A stretch of 64,000 nt of DNA from Allobosea sp. ASV33 (GTDB lineage: Bacteria > Pseudomonadota > Alphaproteobacteria > Rhizobiales > Beijerinckiaceae): NCBI RefSeq assembly GCF_016428755.1, contig NZ_JAELTI010000004.1, positions 1 through 64,000 on the forward strand, read 5' to 3'. The translations under genes and the position numbers were made by a program. Below, one piece after another: positions 1,910-46,042 of this stretch. Below the pieces are notes generated by a model. That model saw only the letters and a program-made list of their open reading frames with translations, did no database searches and was not told where the DNA came from. How positions within the stretch are numbered: position 1 is the first letter of the stretch; every line of letters starts with the position of its first letter.

Positions 1910-3082
1910 ATGCCCAAGACCGACATCATCGCGGCGCTCACCCCCGAAATCACCGCGATCCGCCGCGACATCCATCGCCACCCCGAGCTGATGTACGACG
2001 TGCACCGGACCGCCGGCCTCGTCGCCGACAAGCTCCGGGAATGGGGCGTCGACGAAGTCGCCACCGGCGTGGGCCAGACCGGCGTGGTCGGCGTCATCAA
2101 GGGCAAGGGCCAGGATTCCGGTCGCGTCATCGCCATGCGCGCCGACATGGACGCGCTGCCGATCCACGAGGAGACCAATCTCCCGCACCGCTCGACCGTT
2201 CCCGGCAAGATGCATGCCTGCGGCCATGACGGCCATACCGCCATGCTGCTCGGCGCCGCCAAGTACCTGAGCGAGACCCGCGATTTCGACGGCACCGCCG
2301 TGCTGATCTTCCAGCCGGCCGAAGAGGGCGGCGCCGGCGCCAAGGCGATGATCGACGACGGGCTGATCACCCGCTTCGGCATCCAGGAAGTCTACGGCAT
2401 GCACAACAAGCCGGGCGTGCCCGTCGGCAAGTTCGAGATCCGCAAGGGTCCCGCGATGGCCGCGGCCGACCAGCTCCACATCAAGATCGAAGGCCTCGGG
2501 GGCCATGCGGCCGCGCCGCACCGCGTCAACGACCCGATCGTCGCCTCCTGCGCGCTGGTCTCGGCGCTGCAGACGGTTGCCTCGCGCAATGCCGATCCGC
2601 TCGACTCGATCGTCGTCTCGGTGACCGCGTTGAATGCCGGCGAGGCCTTCAACGTCATTCCGCAGACCGCGGAGATCAAGGGCTCGGTGCGCACGCTGAC
2701 GCCGGAGACCCGCGACCTCGCCGAGAAGCGCATCGCCGAGATCGTCGAGGGCGTGATGAAGGCCTTCGGCATGAAGTACCAGCTCAATTATCGCCGCGGC
2801 TATCCGGTGACCTTCAACCATGCCGGCCAGACCGATTTCGCCACCAGCGTTACGAAGGAGGCCTTCGGCTCGGACGCGATCAACACCGAGGTGCCGCCGA
2901 CCATGGGCTCGGAGGATTTCTCCTACATGCTGGAGGAGCGCCCCGGCGCCTTCATCAATATCGGCAACGGCGACTCGGCCGGCCTGCACAACCCGGCCTA
3001 CGAGTTCAACGATGCGGCGATCCCGGTGGGCGTGAACTACTGGGCGAGCCTCATCGAGATCGCGATGCCGCAGCGCGGCTGA
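1910..3082 (+). CDS. M20 family amidohydrolase (hippurate hydrolase/aminoacylase type)
   Basis: The 390-residue protein matches the usual length of the M20D group, cytoplasmic binuclear-metal enzymes that hydrolyse N-acyl amino acids or related amides. Visible motifs in order are 'DIHRHPEL' near residue 25, 'MRADMDALPI' near 80, the metal motif 'HACGHDGHTAMLL' near 105, 'FQPAEEGGAGA' with the catalytic Glu near 137, 'GHAAAPH' near 195, and 'MGSEDFSYM' near 337. All expected metal and catalytic residues are present. The FAD oxidoreductase starts 11 bases downstream, so the two probably form an operon. The acyl substrate is unknown. Confidence 0.9.
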   Translation: MPKTDIIAALTPEITAIRRDIHRHPELMYDVHRTAGLVADKLREWGVDEVATGVGQTGVVGVIKGKGQDSGRVIAMRADMDALPIHEETNLPHRSTVPGKMHACGHDGHTAMLLGAAKYLSETRDFDGTAVLIFQPAEEGGAGAKAMIDDGLITRFGIQEVYGMHNKPGVPVGKFEIRKGPAMAAADQLHIKIEGLGGHAAAPHRVNDPIVASCALVSALQTVASRNADPLDSIVVSVTALNAGEAFNVIPQTAEIKGSVRTLTPETRDLAEKRIAEIVEGVMKAFGMKYQLNYRRGYPVTFNHAGQTDFATSVTKEAFGSDAINTEVPPTMGSEDFSYMLEERPGAFINIGNGDSAGLHNPAYEFNDAAIPVGVNYWASLIEIAMPQRG

Positions 3083-3093
3083 CGGCACGGGCG

Positions 3094-4200
3094 ATGAGCG
3101 ACATCGATTGTCTGGTGATCGGGGCCGGCGTCGTCGGCCTCGCGGTTGCCCGCGAATTGGCGCTGGCCGGACGCGAGGTCGTCATCACCGAGGCTGCCGA
3201 GGGCATCGGCACCCAGACCTCGGCCCGCAATTCCGAGGTCATCCATGCCGGGATCTATTATCCGCCCGGCTCGCTGAAGGCCCGCGTCTGCGTCGCGGGC
3301 CGTGAGCTACTCTACCGCTACCTTGGGGAGCGCGGCTTGCCGCACAAGGCCTGCGGCAAGCTGATCGTCGCCACCTCCGAAGCCCAGAAGCCGGCGCTTG
3401 AGACGATCATGGCCCGCGCCAAGGCCTCGGGCGTAGACACGCTCCGCTGGCTCTCCGGCGCCGAGGCCAAGGCGATGGAGCCGGAAGTGCGCTGCGAGAT
3501 CGCGCTGCTCTCGCCCGAGACCGGCGTGGTCGACAGCCATGCGCTGATGCTGTCGCTGCTCGGCGAATGCGAGGCGGCCGGCGGCTCGCTTGCCTTGAAC
3601 ACGCCGATCACCGGCTGGCGGCGCGAGGCGGATGGCTTCAGCGTCGAATTCGGCGGCGACGATCCGGCGACCTACAGCGTGCGGACCGTGGTCAATTCAG
3701 CCGGCCACGGTGCGCCGAAGCTGCTCGGCCTGCTCGACGGTTTTCCGGCTGAGCATGTGCCGGTGCAGCATTATGCCAAGGGCAATTATTTCGCGCTGAC
3801 CGGCAAGCAGCCGTTCAGCCATCTGGTCTACCCGGTGCCGGAAGCGGCAGGTCTCGGCATCCACGCCACGATCGACATGGGCGGGCGGGTGAAGTTCGGG
3901 CCTGATGTCGAATGGGTCGAGCATGACCAGGATCTGGTGGTCGACCCTTCGCGGGCGGAGAAGTTCTACGCGGCGATCCGGACCTACTGGCCGGGGCTGG
4001 CGGATGGAGCTTTGGTCGCGGATTACGCCGGCATCCGGCCGAAGCTGCACGGGCCGACCGAACCGATGCCGGATTTCCGCATCGACGGACCTGAGGTGCA
4101 TGGCGTGGCGGAACTGGTCAACCTGCTCGGCATCGAGAGCCCGGGGCTGACCAGTTCGCTGGCGATCGCCGAGATGGTGCGCGAAAAACTCGCGGCGTGA
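3094..4200 (+). CDS. FAD-dependent oxidoreductase, L-2-hydroxyglutarate dehydrogenase-like
   Basis: The 368-residue protein belongs to the DAO superfamily. The N-terminal Rossmann FAD motif is 'VIGAGVVGLAVARELA', followed by 'ARNSEVIHAGIYYPPGSLKA', a strong signature of the L-2-hydroxyglutarate oxidase (LhgO) group. The C-terminal part has 'YAGIRPKL' and 'GIESPGLTSSLAIA', where the FAD dinucleotide fold closes. Known relatives oxidise 2-hydroxy acids and pass electrons to the quinone pool. It is somewhat shorter than LhgO proper, so the exact substrate is left open. It follows the M20 hydrolase by 11 bases, which suggests the two act on one substrate in sequence. Confidence 0.8.
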   Translation: MSDIDCLVIGAGVVGLAVARELALAGREVVITEAAEGIGTQTSARNSEVIHAGIYYPPGSLKARVCVAGRELLYRYLGERGLPHKACGKLIVATSEAQKPALETIMARAKASGVDTLRWLSGAEAKAMEPEVRCEIALLSPETGVVDSHALMLSLLGECEAAGGSLALNTPITGWRREADGFSVEFGGDDPATYSVRTVVNSAGHGAPKLLGLLDGFPAEHVPVQHYAKGNYFALTGKQPFSHLVYPVPEAAGLGIHATIDMGGRVKFGPDVEWVEHDQDLVVDPSRAEKFYAAIRTYWPGLADGALVADYAGIRPKLHGPTEPMPDFRIDGPEVHGVAELVNLLGIESPGLTSSLAIAEMVREKLAA

Positions 4201-28475: not shown

Positions 28476-29843
28476 TTACTCCGCTGCGAGCAGGCGCCGC
28501 ATCACGCTGGCGAAGCGCGCGCGCACCGAATCGCGGGCGAGATGGCGCCCCTCGGCCACCACCCTCCTGCCACCGACGACGACATCGCGCAAAGGCATGG
28601 CGTTGGCGGCGAAGATCGCGCTGTCGACCGCCTCGGCGCCGGAGCGGCCGACGAGGGCCGGATGATCGGTATCGAGCGTGATGAAATCGGCGCGGTGGCC
28701 GGGCGCGATGGCGCCGATGGCACGGCCGCAGGCCCGCGCGCCGCCGGCACAAGCGGCCTGCCAGAGCGCGAGACCGGTCGAAGCCTTCTCCTCGGCGAAG
28801 AGCGCGCGGCGACGATCCCGCAGGCGCTGCGAGTATTCGAGCTGGCGCAGTTCCGAGCCGGCATCGATCTGGATGTTGGAATCGCTGCCGACGCCATAGG
28901 CGCCGCCCGCTTGGGCATAGCGAATGCCATCGAAGATGCCGTCGCCGAGGCTGGACTCGGTGATCGGGCACAGCCCAGCCACTGCGCCGCTGCGCGCGAT
29001 GCCGTTCCGCTCGGAATCGCTCAGATGCGTCGCGTGGATCAGGCACCAGCGCTTGTCGAGCGGGATCGTGTCCATCAGCAGTTCGACCGGGCGCTTGCCG
29101 GTGATCTTCAGGCTGGCCTCGACCTCCGGCACCTGCTCGGCGACATGGATATGTACGGGATCGTTCGGGCGCAGCGAGGAGACCCAATCGAGATCGTCGA
29201 GCGCGACCGCGCGCAGTGAATGCGGGGCGACGCCGAGCCGCGCGTCCGGCAGGTCGCGGATCGCGGTGGCGCTGCCTTCGAGCAGGCGCTGATAGGCGTC
29301 GCGCTCGTTGACGAAGCGGCGCTGGCCGTGGACCGAGGGCGCCTGCCCGAAATTGCCGAAGCGATAGAGCACCGGCAGAAGCGTGAGGCCGAGGCCGGTT
29401 TCCTGCGCGGCCGAGGCGATCGCCTGCCCCATCGTCGCGATATTGGCGTAGGCGCCCCCGTCCTTGTCGTGATGGAGATAGTGGAACTCGGCGAGCGCAG
29501 TGAAGCCGCCTTCCAGCATCTCGACGAAGGCCTGCGCGGCAATGGCCTGCACGTCATCGGGATCGAGCCGGTCGAGGAAGCGGTACATCACCTCGCGCCA
29601 GGTCCAGAAGGAATCCTCCGGCGCGCCGCGGCGCTCGGACAAGCCGGCCATGCCGCGCTGGAAGGCATGGCTGTGCAGGTTCGGCATGCCGGGCAGAGCG
29701 ATCCCTGAGAAGCTGTGCTGATCCCCTGCTGGCTTCACCCCTGTCTCAACGGACGCGATCGTGCCCTCGACAATGGTCAGCTTCACATCGCTGGCAAAAC
29801 CTTCGGGCAGAAGAGCCTCGGCCAGATGCAGGGTCTCGGTCAC
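28476..29843 (-). CDS. hutF: Formimidoylglutamate deiminase
   Basis: HutF converts N-formimidoyl-glutamate to N-formylglutamate and ammonia. The 455-residue amidohydrolase has the metal motif 'GMPNLHSHAFQRGMAGLSER', 'HIHVAEQVPEVE', 'LIHATHLSDSE' and 'GVGSDSNIQIDAGSELRQLE', all typical of HutF. The GTG at 29843 has GGAG eight bases upstream. Longer frames starting at TTG 29885 or ATG 29879 would begin inside the operator palindrome and are rejected. It is divergent from hutI and upstream of hutC. Confidence 0.93.
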   Translation of the reverse strand: MTETLHLAEALLPEGFASDVKLTIVEGTIASVETGVKPAGDQHSFSGIALPGMPNLHSHAFQRGMAGLSERRGAPEDSFWTWREVMYRFLDRLDPDDVQAIAAQAFVEMLEGGFTALAEFHYLHHDKDGGAYANIATMGQAIASAAQETGLGLTLLPVLYRFGNFGQAPSVHGQRRFVNERDAYQRLLEGSATAIRDLPDARLGVAPHSLRAVALDDLDWVSSLRPNDPVHIHVAEQVPEVEASLKITGKRPVELLMDTIPLDKRWCLIHATHLSDSERNGIARSGAVAGLCPITESSLGDGIFDGIRYAQAGGAYGVGSDSNIQIDAGSELRQLEYSQRLRDRRRALFAEEKASTGLALWQAACAGGARACGRAIGAIAPGHRADFITLDTDHPALVGRSGAEAVDSAIFAANAMPLRDVVVGGRRVVAEGRHLARDSVRARFASVMRRLLAAE

Positions 29844-29871: not shown

Positions 29872-29887
29872 AATTGCATATGCAAAT
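29872..29887. promoter_or_regulatory. Proposed HutC operator O1
   Basis: AATTGCATATGCAAAT, with the perfect 12-bp palindrome TTGCATATGCAA at 29874-29885, lies on the hutF side of the divergent hut region. HutC regulators bind short inverted repeats of this kind; binding here is inferred from position and recurrence. Confidence 0.75.
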
Positions 29888-29892
29888 ACCAC

Positions 29893-29922
29893 TTGCCAAT
29901 TGCATATGCAATTGGATAGCAT
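29893..29922 (+). promoter_or_regulatory. Candidate sigma-70 promoter of the hutI operon
   Basis: TTGCCA (29893-29898), 18 bases, TAGCAT (29917-29922). The spacer is almost entirely operator O2, so a bound repressor would block RNA polymerase. Confidence 0.5.
29896..29915. promoter_or_regulatory. Proposed HutC operator O2
   Basis: The 20-bp perfect palindrome CCAATTGCATATGCAATTGG contains the same 12-bp core as O1. The two cores are 26 bases apart centre to centre, about two and a half helical turns. Confidence 0.8.
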
Positions 29923-29956: not shown

Positions 29957-31189
29957 GTGGCGAAAGCGCCTGGTGAAGCGATTGTCTGCGACAAGCTCTG
30001 GACGAATGCGCGGCTGGCGACGATGTCGGCCGCGATCGATGCGCCCTATGGTGCGATCGAGGACGGCGTCATCGCCGCCCGCGACGGACGCATCGTCTAT
30101 GCCGGGCCGCGCAGCGCGGCGCCCTCCTTCCAGGCGGCCGAGACCATCGACTGCGCGGGACGCTGGATCACGCCCGGCCTGATCGATTGCCACACCCATC
30201 TCGTCTATGGCGGCGACCGGGCGCACGAGTTCGAACTGCGCCTGCAGGGCGCGACCTATGAGGAGATCGCGCGGGCCGGCGGCGGCATCCTCTCCACCGT
30301 CAAGGCGACGCGCGAGGCGAGCGAGGATGCGCTCTTCGCCTCCGCCGACCGGCGCCTCGCCGCGCTGATGGCCGAGGGCGTCACCACCGTCGAGATCAAG
30401 TCCGGCTACGGGCTGGAGCAGCAGGCGGAGCTCAAGCAACTGCGCGTCGCCCGCCGGATCGGCCGCGAGCGCCCTGTCACCGTCCGCACCACCTTCCTCG
30501 GCGCCCATGCCGTGCCGCCGGAATACAAGGGGCGGTCGGGCGACTACACCGCGCTCGTCGCCGGGCCGCTGCTCGATGCCGTCGCGACCGAGGGTCTGGC
30601 GGATGCGGTCGACGTCTTCTGCGAGGGCATCGCCTTCTCGCCCCACGAGACCAAGGCAGTATTCGAGGCCGCCAAGGCCAAGGGCCTCGCGATCAAGATC
30701 CATGCCGAGCAGCTCTCCAACCTGCATGGCGCCAAGCTCGCAGCCGAGATGGGCGCACTCTCCGCCGACCACCTCGAATATCTCGACGAGGACGGCGTCA
30801 TCGCCATGGCCAAGGCCGGTACGGTCGCGGTCGTGCTGCCGGGCGCCTTCTACTTCCTGCGCGAGACGCAGAAGCCGCCGATCGAACTGATGCGCAAGCA
30901 TGGCGCGGCGATCGCACTCGCGACCGACGCCAATCCCGGCTCCTCGCCGCTGACCTCCCCGCTGCTGGTGCTCAACATGGCCTGCACGCTCTTCCGCATG
31001 ACACCGGAAGAGGCTCTTGCCGGCCTCACCCGCAACGCCGCGACCGCGCTCGGCCTGCAGGACGAAATCGGCACGCTCGAATCCGGCAAGCGCTGCGATC
31101 TCGCGATCTGGGAGATCGAGCGCCCGGCCGAACTCGCCTACCGCATCGGTTTCAATCCCCTTCACACCCGCATCTGGAACGGACAATGA
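29957..31189 (+). CDS. hutI: Imidazolonepropionase
   Basis: HutI opens the ring of imidazolone-5-propionate to give formimidoylglutamate. The 410-residue amidohydrolase has the metal motif '[20 protein letters not shown]', then '[20 protein letters not shown]', 'EIKSGYGL', '[11 protein letters not shown]', 'KIHAEQLSN' and '[12 protein letters not shown]'. The GTG start at 29957 has GGGAGGA seven bases upstream. It leads hutI-hutH-hutG-hutU and overlaps hutH by ATGA. Confidence 0.95.
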
Positions 31190-32718
31190 TCACGGTTTCG
31201 CTGAACCCGGGCGCAGCACATCTCACCGATTGGCGCGCGATCCTCGACGGCGCCGTCGCCTCGCTCAGTGGTGAGAGCGCGAAGAACATCGCCTCCGGCC
31301 AGAAGATCGTCGAGGAGATCGTCGCTGCCGGCACCGTGACCTATGGCGTCAATACCGGCTTCGGCAAGCTCGCCAGCGTGCGCATCGCCGATGCCGATCT
31401 CGCCAAGCTCCAGAGCAACCTGATCCTCTCGCATGCGGTCGGCACCGGCCCGGCCCTGCCCGACGGTGTCGTCCGCCTGCTGCTGGCGATGAAGGCGGCG
31501 AGCCTGGCGCGCGGCGCCTCCGGCGTGCGCCCCGTCGTTATCGAAGCGCTGACTAACGCGCTCAAGGCCGACGCCCTGCCGGTGATCCCGGCCAAGGGCT
31601 CGGTGGGCGCCTCCGGCGACCTCGCGCCGCTCGCCCATATGACCGCAGCCCTGATGGGCTACGGCGAGATCCGCCTGAAGGGCGAGACGCTTCCGGCGGC
31701 AGATGCCCTCAAGCGTGCGGGCCTCGCCACGCTGGCACTCGGCGCCAAGGAAGGCCTCGCGCTGATCAACGGCACGCAGGTCTCGACCACGCTGGCGCTC
31801 ACGGGCTTGGCCGCCATCGCCCGCGTCTTCGACGCCGCGCTCGTCGCCGGCGCGCTCTCGGTCGATGCGCTCAAGGGCTCCGATACTCCGTTCGACCCGC
31901 GCATCCAGACTCTGCGCGGTCAGCCCGGCCAGATCAAGGTCGCCAAGATCCTGCTCGACCTGATCGCCGGCAGCGCGATCCGCGAGAGCCATCGCCATGG
32001 CGATACGAAGGTGCAGGACCCCTATTCGCTCCGCTGCCAGCCGCAGGTGATGGGCGCGGTTCATGGGCTGCTGGCGAATGTCGCCGCGACACTCTCCATC
32101 GAGGCCAACGCGGTCACCGACAATCCGCTGGTGCTCGGCCCCGGCGAGATTGTCTCGGGCGGCAATTTCCACGCCGAGCCGGTCGCCTTCGCCGCCGATA
32201 TCCTGGCGATGGCCGTCTGCGAGATCGGCAACCTCTCGGAGCGCCGCATGGCGCTGCTGGTCGACCCCGTGATGAGCGGCCTGCCGCCCTTCCTCGCCCG
32301 CGATGCCGGCCTGAACTCGGGCTTCATGATCGCGCAGGTCACCGCTGCCGCGCTCGCCTCCGAGAACAAGCAGAAGGCTTATCCGGCTTCGGTCGACACC
32401 ATCCCGACCTCGGCCAACCAGGAAGACCATGTCTCGATGGCGACGCATGGCGCCTTCCGCTTGATCGACATGGCGAAGAACGCGGCCAGCATCATCGGCG
32501 TCGAACTGATGGCGGCGGCGGAGGCGATCGAGCATCACCGCCCGCTCAAGACCAGCGCGCGCCTGGAGCCGGTGCTCGCGCTGCTGCGCAGCAAGATCGC
32601 GCCGCTCACCGAGGACCGCTATCTCGCCCCCGACCTCGCGGCCGCGACCGAGTTCGTGCTCTCCGGCGCCGTCGGCAAGGCAGCCGGCCTCGACAGCTTC
32701 GCCGAGTGCAGCGCATGA
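31186..32718 (+). CDS. hutH: Histidine ammonia-lyase
   Basis: HutH deaminates L-histidine to urocanate, the first step of the pathway. The 510-residue protein has the self-forming MIO cofactor triad Ala-Ser-Gly at residues 142-144 ('[16 protein letters not shown]'), the catalytic-loop motif '[12 protein letters not shown]', '[17 protein letters not shown]' and '[15 protein letters not shown]'. Length is normal for the family. Start and stop overlap the flanking hut genes by ATGA, showing tight translational coupling. Confidence 0.96.
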
Positions 32719-33524
32719 GCGCCGAGACCGTCACGGTCACGCGGGGCTCGTCCCCGCTGATCCTCTCGATGCCGCATCCCGGCACCGGCCTTCCGCCGGA
32801 GGTCGCGGCGCAGCTCAACGAACGCGGAAAGCTGGTCGAGGATACTGACTGGCATATGCGCCAGCTCTACGGCTTCGCCGCGCCGTTCGAGCCCACAATC
32901 GTCGAGGCGCAGCTCTCGCGCTTCGTCATCGACCTCAACCGCGACCCGTCCGGCGTCTCGCTCTATCCGGGCCAGGCGACGACCGAGCTCGTTCCGAGCA
33001 CGACCTTCGACGGCGCGCCGATCTGGCAGAAGGCTCCGGACGCGAACGAGATCGAGCGGCGCAAGGCAGCTTATTTCCAGCCCTATCACACGGCGCTGGC
33101 CGCCGAGATCGAACGGGTGAAGGCCGAGCACGGCTATTGCGTGCTGTGGGACTGCCACTCGATCAAGTCGGTGATCCCGCGCCTGTTTCCGGGCACGCTG
33201 CCGATACTGAACCTCGGCACCAATTCCGGCCAGAGCTGCGCCGGGAGCGTCGAGGCCGCCGCCGTCACCGCGATGGCCGGCCATCCCCTGACCCAGATCG
33301 CCAATGGTCGCTTCAAGGGCGGCTGGATCACGCGCCATTACGGGCGCCCCTCCGAGCGCGTTCACGCGCTCCAGATGGAAATCGCGCTCTCGGCCTATCT
33401 GACCGACGAGACCGCGCCCTGGACCTTCGACGCGCCGAAGGCCGCCGCCTTGCAAACCGCCTTGTCAGCCATCATCGCCGCCGCCCTCGACGCGGCCAAG
33501 GAACTCGAACGGAGCCGTTCATGA
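32715..33524 (+). CDS. hutG: N-formylglutamate deformylase
   Basis: HutG hydrolyses N-formylglutamate to glutamate and formate, the last step after HutF. The 269-residue protein has the N-formylglutamate amidohydrolase fold: '[14 protein letters not shown]' with a metal ligand near the N-terminus, '[13 protein letters not shown]', '[18 protein letters not shown]' and 'LWDCHSIKS'. The ATG at 32715 overlaps the hutH stop (ATGA) and is preferred over GTG at 32706. It overlaps hutU by ATGA. Confidence 0.93.
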
Positions 33525-35188
33525 CCCGCCTGGACAATACCCGCGTCATCCGCCCCGCCACCGGCACCGAACTCAGCGCCAAGAGCTGGCTGACCGAGGC
33601 ACCGCTGCGCATGCTGATGAACAACCTGCATCCCGATGTCGCCGAGAACCCGCAGGAGCTCGTGGTCTATGGCGGCATCGGCCGCGCCGCCCGCTCCTGG
33701 GAGGATTACGACCGCATCGTCGCGACCTTGCGCCAGCTCGAGGCCGACGAGACCCTGCTCGTCCAGTCCGGCAAGCCGGTTGGCGTGTTCCGCACCCACA
33801 AGGACGCGCCGCGCGTCCTGATCGCCAATTCGAACCTCGTGCCGCATTGGGCCAACTGGGATCATTTCAACGAGCTCGATAAGAAGGGGCTCGCGATGTA
33901 CGGCCAGATGACGGCCGGTTCCTGGATCTATATCGGCACGCAAGGGATCGTGCAGGGCACCTACGAGACCTTCGTCGAGGCCGGGCGCCAGCATTATGGC
34001 GGCAATCTCAAGGGAAAATGGGTCCTGACCGGCGGCCTCGGCGGTATGGGCGGCGCCCAGCCGCTGGCCGCGGTGATGGCCGGCGCCTCCTGCCTCGCCG
34101 TCGAGTGCAATCCCGATTCGATCGATTTCCGCCTGCGCACCCGCTATCTCGACGAGAAGGCCGGGACGCTCGACGAGGCGCTGGAGATGATCGCCCGCTG
34201 GACCAAAAACGGCGAGGCGAAGTCGGTCGGACTGCTCGGCAACTGCGCCGAGATCCTGCCCGAGATGGTCCGCCGCGGCATCCGCCCGGACATGGTCACC
34301 GACCAGACCTCGGCGCATGACCCGATCAACGGCTACCTGCCGAAGGGCTGGACCATGGGCCAGTGGAAGCAGGCGCGCGAAGCCAATCCGAAGTCGGTCG
34401 AGACCGCGGCCCGCGCCTCGATGCGCGAGCATGTCGAGGCGATGATCGCCTTCCAGGACATGGGCATCCCGACCTTCGACTATGGCAACAACATCCGCCA
34501 GGTCGCCAAGGACGAGGGGCTGGAGAACGCCTTCGCCTTCCCGGGCTTCGTGCCGGCCTATATCCGCCCGCTGTTCTGCCGCGGCATCGGCCCGTTCCGC
34601 TGGGCGGCCCTCTCGGGCGATCCGGAGGACATCTACAAGACCGACGCCAAGGTGAAGGAACTGCTGCCCGACAACAAGCACCTGCACAACTGGCTCGACA
34701 TGGCGCGCGAGCGCATCGCGTTCCAGGGCGTGCCGGCGCGCATCTGCTGGGTCGGCCTCGGCGATCGCCACCGCCTCGGGCTCGCCTTCAACGAGATGGT
34801 CAGGACCGGCGAGCTCAAGGCGCCGGTCGTGATCGGCCGCGACCATCTCGATTCCGGCTCGGTCGCCTCGCCGAACCGCGAGACCGAAGCGATGAAGGAC
34901 GGCTCGGATGCCGTCTCCGACTGGCCGCTGCTCAACGCCCTGCTCAACACGGCCTCGGGCGCGACCTGGGTCTCGCTGCACCATGGCGGCGGCGTCGGTA
35001 TGGGCTTCTCGCAGCATGCGGGCGTGGTGATCTGCGCCGACGGCACCGACGATGCGGCCGCCCGCCTCTCGCGCGTGCTCTGGAACGACCCGGCGACGGG
35101 CGTGATGCGTCATGCCGATGCCGGCTACGACATCGCGCTGGACTGCGCCCGCGAGAAGGGGCTCAACCTGCCGGGGATTTTGGGCTGA
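33521..35188 (+). CDS. hutU: Urocanate hydratase
   Basis: Urocanase adds water to urocanate to form imidazolone propionate and uses tightly bound NAD+ as an electrophile. The 555-residue protein has the expected length, the NAD-binding motif '[20 protein letters not shown]', the family block '[18 protein letters not shown]' and '[18 protein letters not shown]' near the C-terminus. It begins by ATGA overlap with hutG. A repeat B element lies between it and hutD. Confidence 0.95.
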
Positions 35189-35319: not shown

Positions 35320-35351
35320 AAGTGTTCCGCTTGAATTCGAAGGAGTCTGCC

Positions 35352-35915
35352 ATGCGCATCATCCGCGCCGCCGATTGCAAGGTCATGCCGTGGAAGAACG
35401 GCGGCGGCACCACGACCGAAATCGCGGCGGCGCCTGAAGGCGCCTCGCTCGGCGATTTCGATTGGCGGATATCGATGGCCCATGTGGGCGCCGACGGACC
35501 GTTCTCGTCCTTTCCCGGCATCGACCGAACGCTGTCCGTGCTGACCGGCAATGGCATCCGGCTGGCCTTTGGCGATGGCGAGACGGTTTCGCTCGACCGC
35601 GCGACCGCACCGTTCTTCTTCGCCGCCGACCGGGCGGTGGACGGGGTGCTGGTCGATGGAGCGATCGACGACCTCAATGTGATGAGCCGCCGCGGGGCGT
35701 GGAGCCATAGCGTCGAGCGCCTGAGCGGCGGATCGCATGAGATCGCGGTTGAGCGTGGCGTGCTGGTCCTGGTGGCTCGGCATGGAGAGTGGCAGGTGAA
35801 TGGAGCTGCTCTGGCGGCTGGAGATAGCGCTGTCTTAGAAGCGCCCGTCACCGCAAAGCTCGCTGCCCAGAATGGCGGCGAGCTGTTCGTCGTGAAGCTA
35901 ACCTCACAAGCCTGA
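35352..35915 (+). CDS. hutD: HutD family protein
   Basis: The 187-residue protein matches the HutD/Ves cupin-like family: 'MPWKNGGGTTTEIAAAPEGA', 'DFDWRISMAHVGADGPFSSF', 'PGIDRTLSVLTGNGI' and a late 'WSHSVERLSGG'. HutD has no proven enzymatic role; in Pseudomonas it is thought to act as a governor that limits hut expression, possibly by binding a pathway intermediate. The ATG at 35352 has AAGGAG nine bases upstream. It probably belongs to the hutI operon. Confidence 0.88.
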   Translation: MRIIRAADCKVMPWKNGGGTTTEIAAAPEGASLGDFDWRISMAHVGADGPFSSFPGIDRTLSVLTGNGIRLAFGDGETVSLDRATAPFFFAADRAVDGVLVDGAIDDLNVMSRRGAWSHSVERLSGGSHEIAVERGVLVLVARHGEWQVNGAALAAGDSAVLEAPVTAKLAAQNGGELFVVKLTSQA

Positions 35916-39825: not shown

Positions 39826-40605
39826 TTAGTGATCCGCCGCGATCACCTCCGCGCGTATCTCCTCGACCAGCCGCTCCTTCAGGGCGACGAATTCCGGGGT
39901 CGTCTTGATGGTGTAGGGCCGCGGATGCGGCAGATCCACCGCGATATCGGCCTTGATCCGCCCCGGGCGCTTGCTCATCACCACGACTCGAGAGCCGACG
40001 AAGATCGCCTCTTCGATGTCATGGGTGACGAAGAGCACGGTCTTCTGCTCGCGCTCCCAGATGCCGAGCAGCATTTCCTGCATCAGGGCGCGGGTCTGGT
40101 TGTCGAGCGCGCCGAAGGGCTCGTCAAGCAAGAGGATTTTCGGGTCGTTGGCCAGCGCGCGGGCGATCGCCGTGCGCTGCTGCATGCCGCCGGAAAGCTG
40201 TTTCGGAAAATGGTCGACGAAGCTGCCCAGACCGACGCGCACCGCCCAGTCCCGCGCGATCTTCAGGCGCTCGGCTTCGGCCAAGCCCTTCTCGCGCAGG
40301 CCAAAGGCGATGTTCTGCTGCACCGTCAGCCAAGGAAAGAGCGTGTAGCTCTGGAAGACGAAGCCGCGATCGGCGCCTGGCCCCACGACGGCAGAGCCGT
40401 CGAGCAGAACGCGCCCCTCGCTCGCCGTCTCCAGCCCGCCGATGATGCGCAGCAAGGTCGACTTGCCGCAGCCGGAGGGGCCGAGGATGGTGATGAAGTC
40501 GTTGTCGGCGACAGTGAGCGAGGTCGGCATCAGGGCGCGCGTCGGCTCAGCCCCGCGCTGCCCTGCGAAGACCTTGCCGACATTCTCGATGACAAGCTTG
40601 CTCAT
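39826..40605 (-). CDS. NitT/TauT-type ABC transporter ATPase
   Basis: A 259-residue ATPase of the nitrate/taurine/sulfonate importer group with Walker A 'GPSGCGKSTLLRIIGG', Q-loop 'FVFQSYTLFPWLTVQQNIAF', signature 'LSGGMQQRTAIARALA', Walker B 'ILLLDEPFGALD' and switch His 'VTHDIEEA'. The ATG at 40605 overlaps the permease stop (ATGA) and is chosen over a GTG at 40617. It is the last gene of the transporter locus. HutC control of the locus is proposed from the operator at 43.1 kb. Confidence 0.9.
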   Translation of the reverse strand: MSKLVIENVGKVFAGQRGAEPTRALMPTSLTVADNDFITILGPSGCGKSTLLRIIGGLETASEGRVLLDGSAVVGPGADRGFVFQSYTLFPWLTVQQNIAFGLREKGLAEAERLKIARDWAVRVGLGSFVDHFPKQLSGGMQQRTAIARALANDPKILLLDEPFGALDNQTRALMQEMLLGIWEREQKTVLFVTHDIEEAIFVGSRVVVMSKRPGRIKADIAVDLPHPRPYTIKTTPEFVALKERLVEEIRAEVIAADH

Positions 40606-41375
40606 GCGCGCGCCCACGGAAACAGGCGCTGGTTGACCGCCTTGAAGAGGAAATCGGAGACGAGGCCGATCAGGCCGATGACGATGATGCCGAAGATGAT
40701 CTGCCCGGTGTTCAGCAGCGCCTGGCTGTCGGTGATCATGTGCCCAATGCCGGAGGACGAACCGATCAGCTCGGCGACGATGACATAGGTCCAGGCCCAG
40801 CCGAGGACGAGGCGGAAGATTTCGGCGATCTCGGGCGCGGCGTTCGGCAGCATCACGCGGCGCACCACGGAGCTGTCGGTCGCGCCCAGCGTGTAGGCGG
40901 CGTCGACGAGGTCGCGCCGGATCGAGCCGACCGAGACCGCAATCATCAGGATGAGCTGGAAGACCGAGCCGATGAAGATGACGAGCAGCTTCTGCGTCTC
41001 GCCGATGCCGGCCCAGAGGATCAGCAGCGGGATGAAGGCCGAGGCTGGCAGATAGCGCGCGAAGGAGACGAAGGGCTCCAGGAAGGCCTCGACCGGCTTG
41101 TAGGCGCCCATCAGGATGCCGATCGGCAGGGCGACCATGACGGCGATGACGAAGCCGCCGACGACGCGCCAGATCGTCATCAGAATGTCGAAGCTGAAGC
41201 CGTAGCGGACCATCAGGTTGTAGCCTTCGCCGACCATGGTCAGCGGATCGGCCAGGAAGAGGCGCTGGACATAGCCGCCGAAGGTCGCGACCGACCAGAG
41301 CGCGACGAAGAGCGCGAAGAAGGCCAGGCCATAGCCGATACGGGCCGAGGCCGAGACGGGTTGCAAGGGTCTCAT
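40602..41375 (-). CDS. NitT/TauT-type ABC transporter permease
   Basis: The 257-residue inner-membrane protein has about six hydrophobic segments and the BPD-transporter loop 'DAAYTLGATDSSVVRRVMLP'. The other typical blocks are 'FARYLPASAFIPLLILWAGI' and 'SSSGIGHMITDSQ'. It overlaps mug upstream and the ATPase gene downstream by ATGA on each side, so translation of all three is coupled. Confidence 0.9.
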   Translation of the reverse strand: MRPLQPVSASARIGYGLAFFALFVALWSVATFGGYVQRLFLADPLTMVGEGYNLMVRYGFSFDILMTIWRVVGGFVIAVMVALPIGILMGAYKPVEAFLEPFVSFARYLPASAFIPLLILWAGIGETQKLLVIFIGSVFQLILMIAVSVGSIRRDLVDAAYTLGATDSSVVRRVMLPNAAPEIAEIFRLVLGWAWTYVIVAELIGSSSGIGHMITDSQALLNTGQIIFGIIVIGLIGLVSDFLFKAVNQRLFPWARA

Positions 41376-41908
41376 CGCGATTGGATTCCGGTCATGGCCA
41401 TGGCCAGTTGCTTCCAGGGTTCGATCGACCAGAAGCCGGCGGCGGCGCCGGAGGTCGAGGGCAGGATGTAGATGTCGGCGTCGGCCAGTCTGTGCGCCTG
41501 CGGCCCGTAGGCGAGCCGGCCCTCGCGGATGCCGAGAGCGGCCTGCGCCGCACGCTTGCCGTTGAAGGCGAGGATGCGGGGCCGATTCGCAGCGATCCGC
41601 TCGACGAAGCCGGCCACGTCGAAATGGTCGCCGCGCAGCGCGGAATCCGGGCCCGAGCTGCGCTTGGCGACATCGGTCAGGCCGATGCCGTAGCGCAGGA
41701 TGGTCCGGAACTCCTCCGGCCGAAGCCTCTCCGGTACAAGCCCGATCTCATGAAGCACCGGCCAGAACTTGTTGCCCGGCCCGGCATAATAGGCGCCGAG
41801 CCTGGCCGAGGCGGCGCCGGCCTGCGTGCCGCAGAAAACGACATGCAGGCCGGGCTCCAGAACATCCGGGAGGATGTCGCCGTTTACGCGATCAAGATCC
41901 GCTGTCAT
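41372..41908 (-). CDS. mug: Mismatch-specific uracil/thymine DNA glycosylase family protein (Mug-like)
   Basis: The 178-residue protein has the Mug/TDG fold: 'VVFCGTQAGAASARLGAYYA', 'GPGNKFWPVLHEIGL', 'GIGLTDVAKRSSG', 'ILAFNGKRAA' and 'YILPSTSGAAAGF'. E. coli Mug has 'GINPG' with a catalytic Asn where this protein has 'GTQAG', so the base-excision mechanism may differ. Its stop overlaps the permease start (ATGA), placing a DNA-repair-type gene inside a transporter operon. Its ATG lies in the edge of the repeat C element. Confidence 0.82.
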   Translation of the reverse strand: MTADLDRVNGDILPDVLEPGLHVVFCGTQAGAASARLGAYYAGPGNKFWPVLHEIGLVPERLRPEEFRTILRYGIGLTDVAKRSSGPDSALRGDHFDVAGFVERIAANRPRILAFNGKRAAQAALGIREGRLAYGPQAHRLADADIYILPSTSGAAAGFWSIEPWKQLAMAMTGIQSR

Positions 41909-42025
41909 CCCGCAGCCTTCATCCTGAGGAGCCGCGAAGCGGCGTCTCGAAGGATGCTCCAGATGGTTCCCGAACCTCCTGAAACATCCTTCGAGACGGC
42001 CCTTGCGGGCCTCCTCAGGATGAGG
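41904..42025. repeat. Repeat C, 'catcctgagga...tcctcaggatg' palindrome
   Basis: 'ttcatcctgaggagccgcg' with 'gcgtctcgaaggatg' on the left mirrors 'catccttcgagacggccc' and 'gcctcctcaggatgagg' on the right. This type is common in Rhizobiales genomes (from memory). It separates the binding-protein gene from mug and the permease, and its left end supplies the mug start codon. Confidence 0.78.
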
Positions 42026-42055
42026 ACTTGCGGAGATCTCAAGCAGCCCCGGGCC

Positions 42056-43015: not shown

Positions 43016-43111
43016 GATTGAAACCCTTCCCCTGCTTTTGGGCTGACGCCTCACTGCGACGCCTAGACGTCATTCGTGCTGCGATGCAACCTTCGTTCCA
43101 AGACAACCTAA

Positions 43112-43123
43112 TTGCATATGCAA
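43112..43123. promoter_or_regulatory. Proposed third HutC operator
   Basis: The perfect palindrome TTGCATATGCAA, within AATTGCATATGCAAA, is identical to the O1 context over 15 bases. It lies in the divergent region between the binding-protein gene (-) and the ThDP enzyme gene (+). Confidence 0.7.
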
Positions 43124-43257
43124 ACACGTCAAGCGGCCGATCAGCGCCGCTTGGGGAAGTCATGACATTCTCTCGTTTGACAGGGCAGAGGGAATTTCCT
43201 CCTCTTCCGCCCGCCGGCGCGTAGACGCCCTTATTTCTTTCGAGTCGAGGTTTTCCA

Positions 43258-44814
43258 ATGAACGGCGCCGACCGCCTTTGCGACACGCTTCTGATCAACG
43301 GCGTCGATACCTGCTTCGCCAATCCCGGAACCTCCGAGATGCATTTCGTCGCGGCGCTCGACCGCAAGCCGGAGATGCGCTGCGTGCTCGGCCTGTTCGA
43401 GGGCGTGGTGACCGGTGCGGCCGACGGCTATGCCCGCATGGCCGACAAGCCGGCGGCGACGCTGCTGCATTGCGGCCCCGGCATGGCGAACGCGCTCGCC
43501 AACATGCACAATGCCCGGCGCGCCCGCACGCCGATGATCAATGTCGTCGGCGATCACGCGACCTATCACCTCCAGCATGACGCGCCGCTGACCAGCGATA
43601 TCGAGAGCCTGGCCGAGCCGATGTCGCATTTCGTCCGCCGCATCGCGACGCCGGAGGATGTCGGCCCGGCGATCGGCGAAGCCTATGTCGCCTCGCTGAC
43701 CCTACCCGGCGTCACCACCGTGATCCTGCCGGCGGACTGCGCCTGGGGCAGCGTCGAGCCCGCCACGCTGAAGCCGACCGAGTTGCCGGCGCTGAAGAAC
43801 GTCGATGGCGCGACGATCCGCGAGGTCGCGGCCGGCCTGCGCAAGCACGGCAAGCGCGGCGCGATCATGCTGACCGGCCTCGCGCTCCGCGAAAAGCCGA
43901 TGGAGATGGCCGCCCGCATCTGCGCCGTGACCGGCGCCCAGATCTTCAGCCAGATGTCGAACGGGCGCATCCAGCGCGGCGCCGGCCGCGTCGCCATGCC
44001 CAAGGTGTTCTATCCGATCGACAAGGCGCTCGAGCAGCTCAAGGACGTCGATTATCTCGTGCTTGTCGGCGCGCAGGTTCCGGTCGGCTTCTTCGCCTAT
44101 CCCGGCAAGCCCGGCCGCCTGATCCATGACGGCTGCGAGGTCGCCAAGCTCGCGATCTCCGGCGACGACCTGCCGGCCGCGATCACCGCGCTCGCCGAGG
44201 AGATGGGCGCGACCAAGACGGCGCCGCTCTACATCGCCCCGGCGCGCAAGGAGCAGCCCGGCCTGCCGACCGGCAAGCTCGATGCCGACAAGGCCTGCGC
44301 CATCGTCTCGGCCCTGCTGCCGGAGAACTGCATCGTCTGCGACGAGTCGGTCTCGTCCGGCCGCAGCTTTTACTACGACTGCCACAGCGCGCCGCAGCAC
44401 GACTATATCCAGCTCACCGGCGGCGCGATCGGCGAAGGCATTCCGCTCGCCATCGGCGCCGCCGTCGCCTGCCCCGACCGCAAGGTCATCGGCATGCAAG
44501 CCGACGGTTCGGGCATGTACACGGTGCAGGGCCTGTGGACGCAGGCGCGTGAGAACCTCGACATCGTCACCGTCGTCTTCGCCAACCGGACCTACCAGAT
44601 CCTGCATGGCGAGATGCGCGCCGTCGGCGTCAACGATTTCGGCCGCAACGCCACGCTGATGCTGAACATCGACGAGCCGGCGCTGGACTGGGTGATGATG
44701 GCCAAGGGCATGGGCGTCGAAGCGGCGCGGGCCACAACCGCCGAGGAGTTCACCAGCCTGTTCAAGGCGGCGCTGAGCCGGAAGGGGCCGTTCCTGATCG
44801 AAGCGGCGATCTGA
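43258..44814 (+). CDS. Thiamine-diphosphate-dependent enzyme, acetolactate synthase large subunit/benzoylformate decarboxylase family
   Basis: The 518-residue protein has the three-domain ThDP enzyme layout. The N-terminal domain holds the catalytic Glu in 'GLFEGVVTGAADGYARMADK' (Glu 48). The cofactor-binding motif near residue 420 reads 'QADGSGMYTVQGLWTQA' and ends 'VVFANRTYQIL', a variant of GDG...NN. Family members join or decarboxylate 2-oxo acids; the substrate is unknown. It is divergent from the NitT/TauT binding-protein gene and shares the proposed HutC operator. The ATG has GAGG seven bases upstream. Confidence 0.85.
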   Translation: MNGADRLCDTLLINGVDTCFANPGTSEMHFVAALDRKPEMRCVLGLFEGVVTGAADGYARMADKPAATLLHCGPGMANALANMHNARRARTPMINVVGDHATYHLQHDAPLTSDIESLAEPMSHFVRRIATPEDVGPAIGEAYVASLTLPGVTTVILPADCAWGSVEPATLKPTELPALKNVDGATIREVAAGLRKHGKRGAIMLTGLALREKPMEMAARICAVTGAQIFSQMSNGRIQRGAGRVAMPKVFYPIDKALEQLKDVDYLVLVGAQVPVGFFAYPGKPGRLIHDGCEVAKLAISGDDLPAAITALAEEMGATKTAPLYIAPARKEQPGLPTGKLDADKACAIVSALLPENCIVCDESVSSGRSFYYDCHSAPQHDYIQLTGGAIGEGIPLAIGAAVACPDRKVIGMQADGSGMYTVQGLWTQARENLDIVTVVFANRTYQILHGEMRAVGVNDFGRNATLMLNIDEPALDWVMMAKGMGVEAARATTAEEFTSLFKAALSRKGPFLIEAAI

Positions 44815-44839
44815 GCTGCATCGAGCAGCACTGAAGGGC

Positions 44840-44972
44840 GTCATCCCGCACGCGCCGCGGCACGTCAGTGCTGCGGCGCAGATGCGGGATCATTCCCCGG
44901 AAAGGCGCCTTCTCGTCGCGCGGTCCCGTGTCTGCGCAGCGGCATTTCATGCCGCAGCGCGCACGGGATGAC
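44840..44972. repeat. Repeat A copy 4
   Basis: It runs from 'gtcatcccgcacgcgccgcg' to 'gcgcgcacgggatgac', with inner arms 'gcgcagatgcgggatc' and 'ggtcccgtgtctgcgc'. It lies between converging ThDP enzyme and deacetylase genes. Confidence 0.78.
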
Positions 44973-44998
44973 AGCGGTAATCCCAGAAAAGACAGGCG

Positions 44999-46042
44999 CT
45001 ACTTGAACCCGCCCAGGAACGCGTCGAGGCAATCGCCGATCGCCTCCATGGCGTATCCGCCCTCCTGCACCACCAGCGTCGGCAGGTCGAAACCCTTCAC
45101 CTGCCGACCGATCGTGCCGAAGTCCGAAGCCTCCAGCTTCAAGACGCCGATCGGGTCGTCCTTGTGGGCATCGTAGCCGAGCGCGATCACCACGACCTCG
45201 GCGCCGAAATTGCGGATCGCCTTGCCGGCCTCGGCGACGGCGGCCTCCATCGCGGCGCCGCCGGCACCATGCGCCAGCGGCAGGTTGAGGTTGAAGCCCT
45301 CGCCAGGGCCGTTGCCGCGCTCGTCGGCATAGCCGGTGAAGAACGGGTAGTAGTTGGCTGGGTCGGCATGGACCGAAATCGTCAGCACGTCGTTGCGGCG
45401 ATAGAAGATCTGCTGCGTGCCGTCGCCGTGATGGGCATCGACGTCGAGGATTGCAACCTTGCCGAATTTCGAGCGCAGGCGCTGGGCCGCGATCGCGGTG
45501 TTGTTGAGATAGCAGAAGCCGGTGGCGCGATCGGCGCGGGCATGGTGGCCGGACGGGCGGCAGAGCGAGTAGACGGCGCGCTCGCCGGCCAGAATCGCAT
45601 CGGCTGCGGAGACCGCCGTCTCCGACGAGCGCAACGTCGAGTGCCAGCAATGCTCGCCGATCGGCACCGAGAGATCACCGAGATACCAGCCGAGCTGGCC
45701 GATGAAGCCGGTCGGGCGGCAAGGCGGGCGGACATCCTCGTCCGGGCGCCCGCTCCAATACGGGAAGGTGCTCGGCCAGACCTCCGGGCCGCGCTCGGCC
45801 GGCAGGTCCTGCCAGTGCGCCCAGGCGGTTTCGAGGAATGTGACGAAGCCGGAATCGTGGATCGCCAGGACCGGCTCCTTGCCATGCGCCGCCGGCTTCT
45901 CCGGCGCGATACCGTGTTTCCCGAGCGCGCCAAGCAGGCGCTCCGTCCGCTCCGGCAGGTCCTTGGGGGCCACGACCTTGCCGAAGCGCATGTACTGCTG
46001 GGGATCGTGAAGGGCTTGGTCGGGGTGATAGAAGGCGCGCAT
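44999..46042 (-). CDS. Histone deacetylase family protein (acetylpolyamine amidohydrolase type)
   Basis: The 347-residue zinc hydrolase removes acetyl groups from acetylated polyamines or similar amines. Key residues are 'SLCRPSGHHARADRATGFCY' with the two catalytic His, 'ILDVDAHHGDGTQQIFY' with zinc ligands Asp and His, 'ALGYDAHKDDPIG' with the third ligand, and 'VVQEGGYAMEAIG' with the transition-state Tyr. The size and the long N-terminal loop fit acetylpolyamine amidohydrolases rather than AcuC. It lies downstream of the TetR gene on the same strand. Confidence 0.9.
   Translation of the reverse strand: MRAFYHPDQALHDPQQYMRFGKVVAPKDLPERTERLLGALGKHGIAPEKPAAHGKEPVLAIHDSGFVTFLETAWAHWQDLPAERGPEVWPSTFPYWSGRPDEDVRPPCRPTGFIGQLGWYLGDLSVPIGEHCWHSTLRSSETAVSAADAILAGERAVYSLCRPSGHHARADRATGFCYLNNTAIAAQRLRSKFGKVAILDVDAHHGDGTQQIFYRRNDVLTISVHADPANYYPFFTGYADERGNGPGEGFNLNLPLAHGAGGAAMEAAVAEAGKAIRNFGAEVVVIALGYDAHKDDPIGVLKLEASDFGTIGRQVKGFDLPTLVVQEGGYAMEAIGDCLDAFLGGFK

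Follow-up and report, generated by a model that had tools for sequence, protein, structure and literature searches.

Does a NitT/TauT-type ABC importer encoded away from a complete set of histidine utilization (hut) genes answer to the repressor of those genes, and what would it then bring into the cell? The locus raises this question through a 12-bp palindrome, TTGCATATGCAA. A sequence-only reading of the window (the whole stretch of 64,000 nucleotides analyzed here) had placed two copies of it between hutF and hutI and another between the genes of a NitT/TauT-type binding protein and a ThDP enzyme, and had taken the third copy for a HutC operator. Exact copies were found at all three places (O1, O2 and O3; Table 1), and the 15-mer AATTGCATATGCAAA, claimed to be shared by O1 and the third site, was the same at O1 and at 43110.

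The window carries a complete hut cluster, in which the minus strand encodes hutC and hutF, and the plus strand hutI-hutH-hutG-hutU together with a HutD-like gene. HutC exceeded the curated cut-off of TIGR02018, and its gene lies inside the cluster, adjoining hutF. The HutD-like gene scored under its model's cut-off; the gene at the matching position next to hutU is annotated as HutD family in locus L009, and the homologue in L333 is Pfam HutD. O3 is intergenic, with the binding-protein gene on its left and the ThDP-enzyme gene, of the PRK07586 family, on its right. An NMT1-type binding protein, an SsuB/TauB-like ATPase and an SsuC/TauC-like permease encoded in one operon make up the NitT/TauT-type importer. 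The earlier gene calls around the sites (hutF, hutI, binding protein and ThDP enzyme) thus all agreed with the family models.

Table 1. Features of the window, in window positions, and operator copies before livH in other genomes
Feature	Positions	Strand	Remarks
hutC, GntR/HutC-family repressor, 249 aa	27714..28463	-	TIGR02018 273.2 bits, cut-off 220
hutF, formimidoylglutamate deiminase	28476..29843	-	TIGR02022; start codon by eye
O1, predicted HutC operator	29874..29885	.	between hutF and hutI
O2, predicted HutC operator	29900..29911	.	between hutF and hutI, 26 bp from O1
hutI, imidazolonepropionase	29957..31189	+	TIGR01224
hutH, histidine ammonia-lyase	31186..32718	+	
hutG, N-formylglutamate deformylase	32706..33524	+	
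hutU, urocanate hydratase	33521..35188	+	TIGR01228 966 bits; start codon by eye
hutD-like (Ves/HutD) gene	35322..35915	+	PRK11396 75 bits, under cut-off
ABC ATP-binding protein of transporter	39826..40617	-	SsuB/TauB-like
ABC permease of transporter	40602..41375	-	SsuC/TauC-like
Uracil/mismatch DNA-glycosylase-like gene	41372..41908	-	between binding protein and permease
Inverted GC-rich repeats	~41915-42040		between binding-protein and glycosylase genes
NitT/TauT-type substrate-binding protein, 319 aa	42056..43015	-	Pfam NMT1, NMT1_2
Sigma54-like -24/-12 element TGGAACGAAGGTTGCA	43085..43100	-	~25 bp downstream of O3; 11/12 to the consensus given in the text
O3, third predicted HutC operator, TTGCATATGCAA	43112..43123	-	centre 102 bp before binding-protein start codon
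-35-like TTGACG	43128..43133	-	conserved, abuts O3
ThDP-enzyme and histone-deacetylase-domain protein genes	43258-46042		
Exact operator copies before livH (other genomes)	L243:4015, L245:3994, L246:3993, L247:3976		branched-chain amino acid importer operon

The palindrome was rare. In the 401 contigs (5,661,286 bases) of this Bosea-like genome, TTGCATATGCAA occurred three times, every copy inside the window, and the reversed control pattern occurred nowhere in the same contigs. Allowing up to two mismatches in the window revealed no copy beyond the three exact ones. The rarity claimed earlier stood, but the figure given for it (0.004 copies per 64 kb) was too high, as the expectation for independent bases at the window's 66.9% G+C is 0.00045. 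In dinucleotide shuffles of the window, matches with up to two mismatches averaged 0.83, and three or more were seen in 5 of 100 shuffles, a looser criterion than that satisfied by the real matches, which were all exact.

We compared 61 genomes of the genus, including our own, sampled evenly from a larger set. Fifty-four had a HutC match, 59 a match to the binding protein and 59 a ThDP homologue, some of the last being 50-56% paralogues. HutC and the binding protein occurred together in 53 genomes, and in every one a site preceded the binding-protein start by 91-112 bp (exact in 10, one mismatch in 36 and two in 7), always of the kind TTGC[AC]TA[TG]GCA[AT]; in one of them, G191, where the protein match began late, the site was read from the sequence at a distance of 104. 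In the six genomes that encode the binding protein and lack HutC, the 400 bp searched contained no such site, the best matches having 3-5 mismatches at scattered positions. On the hut side, at least one site was present between hutF and hutI in 52/52 HutC-containing genomes fetched, as a pair in 43 (spaced 26 bp in 24 and 27 bp in 19) and singly in 9. Outside those 52, our own genome has the pair and G167 has a pair on another contig, after a contig break. The 53/53 count bears out the earlier expectation that the palindrome would be conserved upstream of orthologous transporters.

The six genomes without HutC measure 3.2-3.9 Mb, resemble one another and encode binding proteins 75-76% identical to that of the window. 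They look like one lineage, and the absence of the site from all six may represent one single loss event. All six kept hutU, as did G176, which has neither HutC nor the binding protein. Since genomes without HutC retain both hutU and the binding protein, HutC is not required for the retention of this pair. In two small-genome members of the genus, L333 and L335, hutF, hutI, hutH and hutU were kept without HutC and without the operator; their hutF-hutI junctions, fetched whole, contained no site, and no regulator was found among 6 reading frames scanned of the 58 listed for L333.

Outside the genus, two operator types occurred. In a sample of 149 genomes of the family, HutC passed the chosen cut-off in 16, of which 10 lie beyond the genus; nine of these ten had the binding protein, and a HutC-type palindrome lay upstream of it in 9/9. 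The operator has T or C as its base 4, and this base was the same at hut and transporter in all five family genomes readable at both. Two genomes of the sister genus g19 (G019, G059) were of the C type at both loci, and G036, G074 and G051 were of the T type at both (TTGTCTA[TG]ACAA, TTGTATAGACAA and similar); G018, G058, G090 and G115 had no hut-side site in the stretch read. T-type sites at both hut and transporter were further found in 13 named loci, 10 chromosomal or contig and 3 on plasmids (nine of the Microvirga group, L048, L052-L054, L056, L061-L063 and L066; L073; and L009, L337 and L338), and on the Enterobacter plasmid L011. One strand encodes hutC and, after it, the transporter in Bradyrhizobium, where a T-type operator precedes hutF. 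This agreement of operator type indicates that one protein, HutC, probably reads both places. The C/T switch probably happened once; with a single switch, the agreement is strong for the linkage, yet it represents few independent events.

An isolated exact 12-mer carried little information outside the lineage. Among 18 non-genus family stretches with an exact match (each of about 3 kb at most and from a different genome, a second place in G139 being left out), 17 contained neither a hut nor a transporter gene. The exception, L115 of the sister genus g19, had the match at hutF/hutI.

The genus is one lineage, and its shared sites could in principle be chance or neutrally inherited copies of an AT-rich palindrome; we give this a negligible probability, as only 0.04 copies are expected per genome, the core and its trailing TTA were nearly invariant in 52 aligned promoters while much else had diverged, and other genera repeat the placement with a different operator. 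A chance origin was rejected on the copies in the window, those in the whole genome and the expectation figures together. Weaker HutC-like paralogues (33-42% identity) do occur in 4/61 genomes, and a GntR regulator other than HutC might recognize all three copies. This is very improbable, however, as HutC is encoded beside O1 and O2, the site is found where HutC is present, and the register equals that of the Pseudomonas HutC operator (TGTA-N2-TACA against TGCA-TA-TGCA; PMC12977541).

More attention is due to the gene on the other side of O3. The site lies between divergent genes, and most Bosea loci have the ThDP gene alongside, so that the site might serve the ThDP gene, or both genes equally, with the transporter incidental. 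The spacing argues otherwise: the distance to the binding protein was nearly constant, whereas that to the ThDP gene ranged over 135-293 bp in named loci with the gene within 600 bp, and exceeded 600 bp in L041. The site also precedes the transporter in genera with no ThDP gene detected beside it. G163 encodes HutC, has its hut operators in pairs and keeps the ThDP and HDAC-like genes intact, but no binding protein was found (searched to E 1e-40); the 11 kb around its ThDP gene contained no permease or ATPase of the transporter type and no site at 11/12 or better. Because this genome, a single one, keeps the ThDP gene and HutC and has neither binding protein nor site, we assign the O3-type site to the transporter. 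The spacing and G163 disfavor the palindrome as operator of the ThDP gene instead, and we regard a primary or equal role there as unlikely; an additional effect on that gene may exist. As proposed at the outset, the site lies in the divergent region between both genes; it belongs to the transporter and not to the ThDP gene. With site counts of 53/53 and 0/6 in the presence and absence of HutC, the missing site in G163 and the agreement at base 4, the proposed link between HutC and the transporter gained strong support, and HutC very probably controls the transporter through O3, as far as comparison of genomes can tell. In most Bosea loci, the ThDP enzyme and a histone-deacetylase-domain protein neighbor the transporter.

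Sigma54 promoters follow the consensus TGGCACG-N4-TTGCW, with GG and GC 10 bases apart. Alignment of 52 genus promoters revealed conserved islands, among them CTTGAC, the operator with its TTA, and TGGAACGAAG[GC]TTGC[AT] about 25 bp beyond. The sigma54-like pattern scored at least 10/12 in 52/52 of these promoters, but the window has 4 such patterns against a Markov mean of 5.2; since such patterns are common by number, it is the conservation that counts as evidence. The pattern reached 11/12 in both g19 genomes, was present in 2/6 genomes without HutC, and was mostly missing from the T-type genera. Alternatively, CTTGAC may be the -35 box of a sigma70 promoter that has O3 as part of its spacer and overlaps the sigma54-like element. 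Under the sigma54 or the sigma70 reading, O3 is placed where bound HutC would block transcription of the transporter. In Pseudomonas, a GntR/HutC repressor likewise acts at a palindrome of the same register, and its footprint overlaps the sigma54 promoter at PhutU or the sigma70 promoter at PhutF (PMC12977541).

All three window operators are of the GC-N4-GC and not of the GT-N4-AC type. HutC-subfamily sites are described as mostly GT and AC spaced 4 nt apart, with listed exceptions (PMC4494728), and the Pseudomonas operator given above has this form. The Bosea operator keeps its register and changes T:A to C:G in each half. We read GC-N4-GC as the variant operator of a HutC that scores within TIGR02018, not as the site of another family. 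We compared 36 HutC proteins of the C type with 35 of the T type, sets that are related by descent and omit L087 and L011; in the DNA-binding region, 12 positions tell the two apart. Thirty of the T-type proteins were typed by a site in their own locus, four (G018, G058, G090, G115) by the transporter site only, and L068, whose locus has no operator site, by kinship. Position 58, in the recognition helix, was His in 36/36 C-type proteins and Asn (33/35) or Ser (2/35) in T-type proteins. The Burkholderiales locus L087 combines His58 with a T-type site, TTGTCTATACAA, which indicates that residue 58 alone is insufficient to set the operator. Favorable predicted contacts in the published analysis include Asn-A and His-G, and its amino acid-base correlations for the HutC subfamily fall at positions 28, 39, 43 and 62 (PMC4494728). 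By our alignment to FadR, residue 58 is position 42 in that numbering and lies outside the correlated set; the paper thus backs residue 58 in general terms only.

We lean towards the view that, in the ancestor of Bosea and its sister genus, HutC would have changed its specificity from GT-N4-AC to GC-N4-GC together with matching changes at its targets (the hutF/hutI pair, the NitT/TauT-type importer and, in some species, livHMGF), that this coincided with the Asn-to-His change at position 58, and that the importer marks out a NitT/TauT-type family specialized for histidine or urocanate. What is new in this work is the operator switch; within the open-licence PMC literature, we found no report of a TGCATATGCA HutC operator. 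The changed operator offers a clear natural example of a repressor that shifted its DNA specificity along with its small regulon, with few candidate residues.

As to function, we consider it very likely that HutC represses both the hut genes and the importer, that urocanate releases it, and that the importer feeds the pathway. HutC would repress the hut genes via O1 and O2, and it would bind O3 as an operator 15 kb from its own gene and repress the importer from within or right beside the importer's promoter. Upon entry of histidine, HutH would make urocanate, urocanate would release HutC, and importer and catabolic genes would be induced together. Binding and repression at these sites we infer from the genome comparisons; the role of urocanate as inducer is taken from Pseudomonas, in which urocanate is reported to relieve HutC (PMC8871633, PMC12977541).

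The genomic setting of the orthologues informs the choice of substrate. They lie in hut clusters of Bradyrhizobium, Microvirga, Rhizobium, Comamonadaceae and an Enterobacter plasmid; in Rhodococcus they adjoin hutH, and in Comamonadaceae hutC-hutH-hutU. The stretch included a hut gene in 52 of the 80 named orthologue loci, and in 45 of the 80 a degenerate operator matching at 12/12 lay upstream, compared with about 1.3 expected from overall density. No hut gene was seen in 28, some of them cut by contig ends, and the stretches of Phreatobacter L050 and L058, among others, contained neither hut genes nor operator. The location of orthologues inside hut clusters supports a histidine-pathway substrate, as had been suggested from the window, and we think it likely that the importer carries one. 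Histidine would be the likelier substrate, ahead of urocanate, and we put the chance that it is histidine somewhat above even.

Structure did not give the substrate. The closest solved relative of the binding protein by sequence was 3qsl (E 2e-10), too distant for the ligand to be read from it, and by fold the protein matches the TauA/SsuA class as a whole. Among solved proteins with this fold, the ligands are taurine, sulfonates, pyrimidines, nitrate, bicarbonate or PQQ. That variety would fit a transporter under HutC with a cargo that is neither histidine nor urocanate, for example another nitrogen source, HutC being a wider nitrogen regulator; so would the action of Pseudomonas HutC beyond hut, as at ntrBC (PMC12977541, PMC8871633), and the exact site before livHMGF in 4/61 genomes of the genus. 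We hold this to be improbable, given that orthologues are embedded in hut clusters of several distant groups, including Rhodococcus and Comamonadaceae. A histidine-pathway substrate remains our preferred reading.

Leyn et al. (2016, PMC5343134) predicted a novel HutC-regulated ABC histidine importer, HisXYZ, in Comamonadaceae, Ralstonia and Rhizobiales. As here, HutC controls both a hut operon and an ABC importer in that prediction, and orthologues of the window's importer lie in hut clusters of Rhizobiales and on a Comamonadaceae plasmid. The available text of PMC5343134 does not name the transporter family or mention the C-type operator; taxonomically, the prediction fits our orthologues closely. 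In our Rhizobiales loci, HutC site and hut linkage were both present, whereas the Comamonadaceae plasmid L336 had the linkage without a 12/12 degenerate site in its locus. The window importer is probably the HisXYZ of Leyn et al., and the regulatory link is probably a rediscovery of the 2016 prediction. The gene names hisXYZ are also used for a Gram-positive histidine importer (PMC9413887). HutXWV/HutXYZ and HisJMPQ, other histidine ABC importers linked to HutC, are listed as distinct systems (PMC5343134), and the TauA/SsuA (NMT1) fold of the window's binding protein sets it apart from them. Pseudomonas, besides its TGTA-N2-TACA operator, differs in using HutT and HutXWV, which are not of the NitT/TauT type (PMC8871633, PMC12977541). 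TauA/SsuA proteins themselves (6ssy, 3ksx) take sulfonate-type ligands and share 19-20% identity with the window's protein, which stayed below the cut-offs of TIGR01728 and TIGR01729. In the open-licence PMC literature, we found neither the NitT/TauT assignment nor the dependence tests nor the operator switch. The usual annotation of NitT/TauT-type binding proteins is as binders of nitrate, taurine or sulfonate; a well delimited orthologous group tied to histidine use would correct this for many bacteria that live in soil or with plants and for plasmids of enterobacteria.

On plasmids, an orthologous binding protein (at least 60% identity) was present on 63 records, 56 of them from enterobacteria (Klebsiella 30, Enterobacter 14, Escherichia 11, Leclercia 1). 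The Enterobacter plasmid L011 carries an accessory hutG-I-C / hutF-D cluster with the transporter and T-type HutC operators. On two Rhizobium plasmids, a second hutC-like gene directly follows the transporter (L337:11511, L338:11513), besides the one beside hutF.

Copies of the palindrome also occurred before other genes of the genus. Exact TTGCATATGCAA was found 164-169 bp before livH of a livHMGF-like operon in G132, G052, G011 and G194, making livHMGF a possible further HutC target in some members. G170 has an extra exact site (L244:4046) between a NitT/TauT-like binding-protein gene (3050-4057, minus strand) and a LysR-type regulator gene. Sites with one mismatch were seen at five other places in our own genome, none matching the livH query.

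Within the transporter operon, the DNA-glycosylase-like gene overlaps the permease start. It is present in many, not all, Bosea loci and was absent, at the identity threshold used, from all non-Bosea loci compared; we take it to be a lineage-specific passenger of the operon. Upstream of it, the inverted GC-rich repeats CATCCTGAGGAG.../...CTCCTCAGGATG look, by eye, like a REP-type element or an attenuator.
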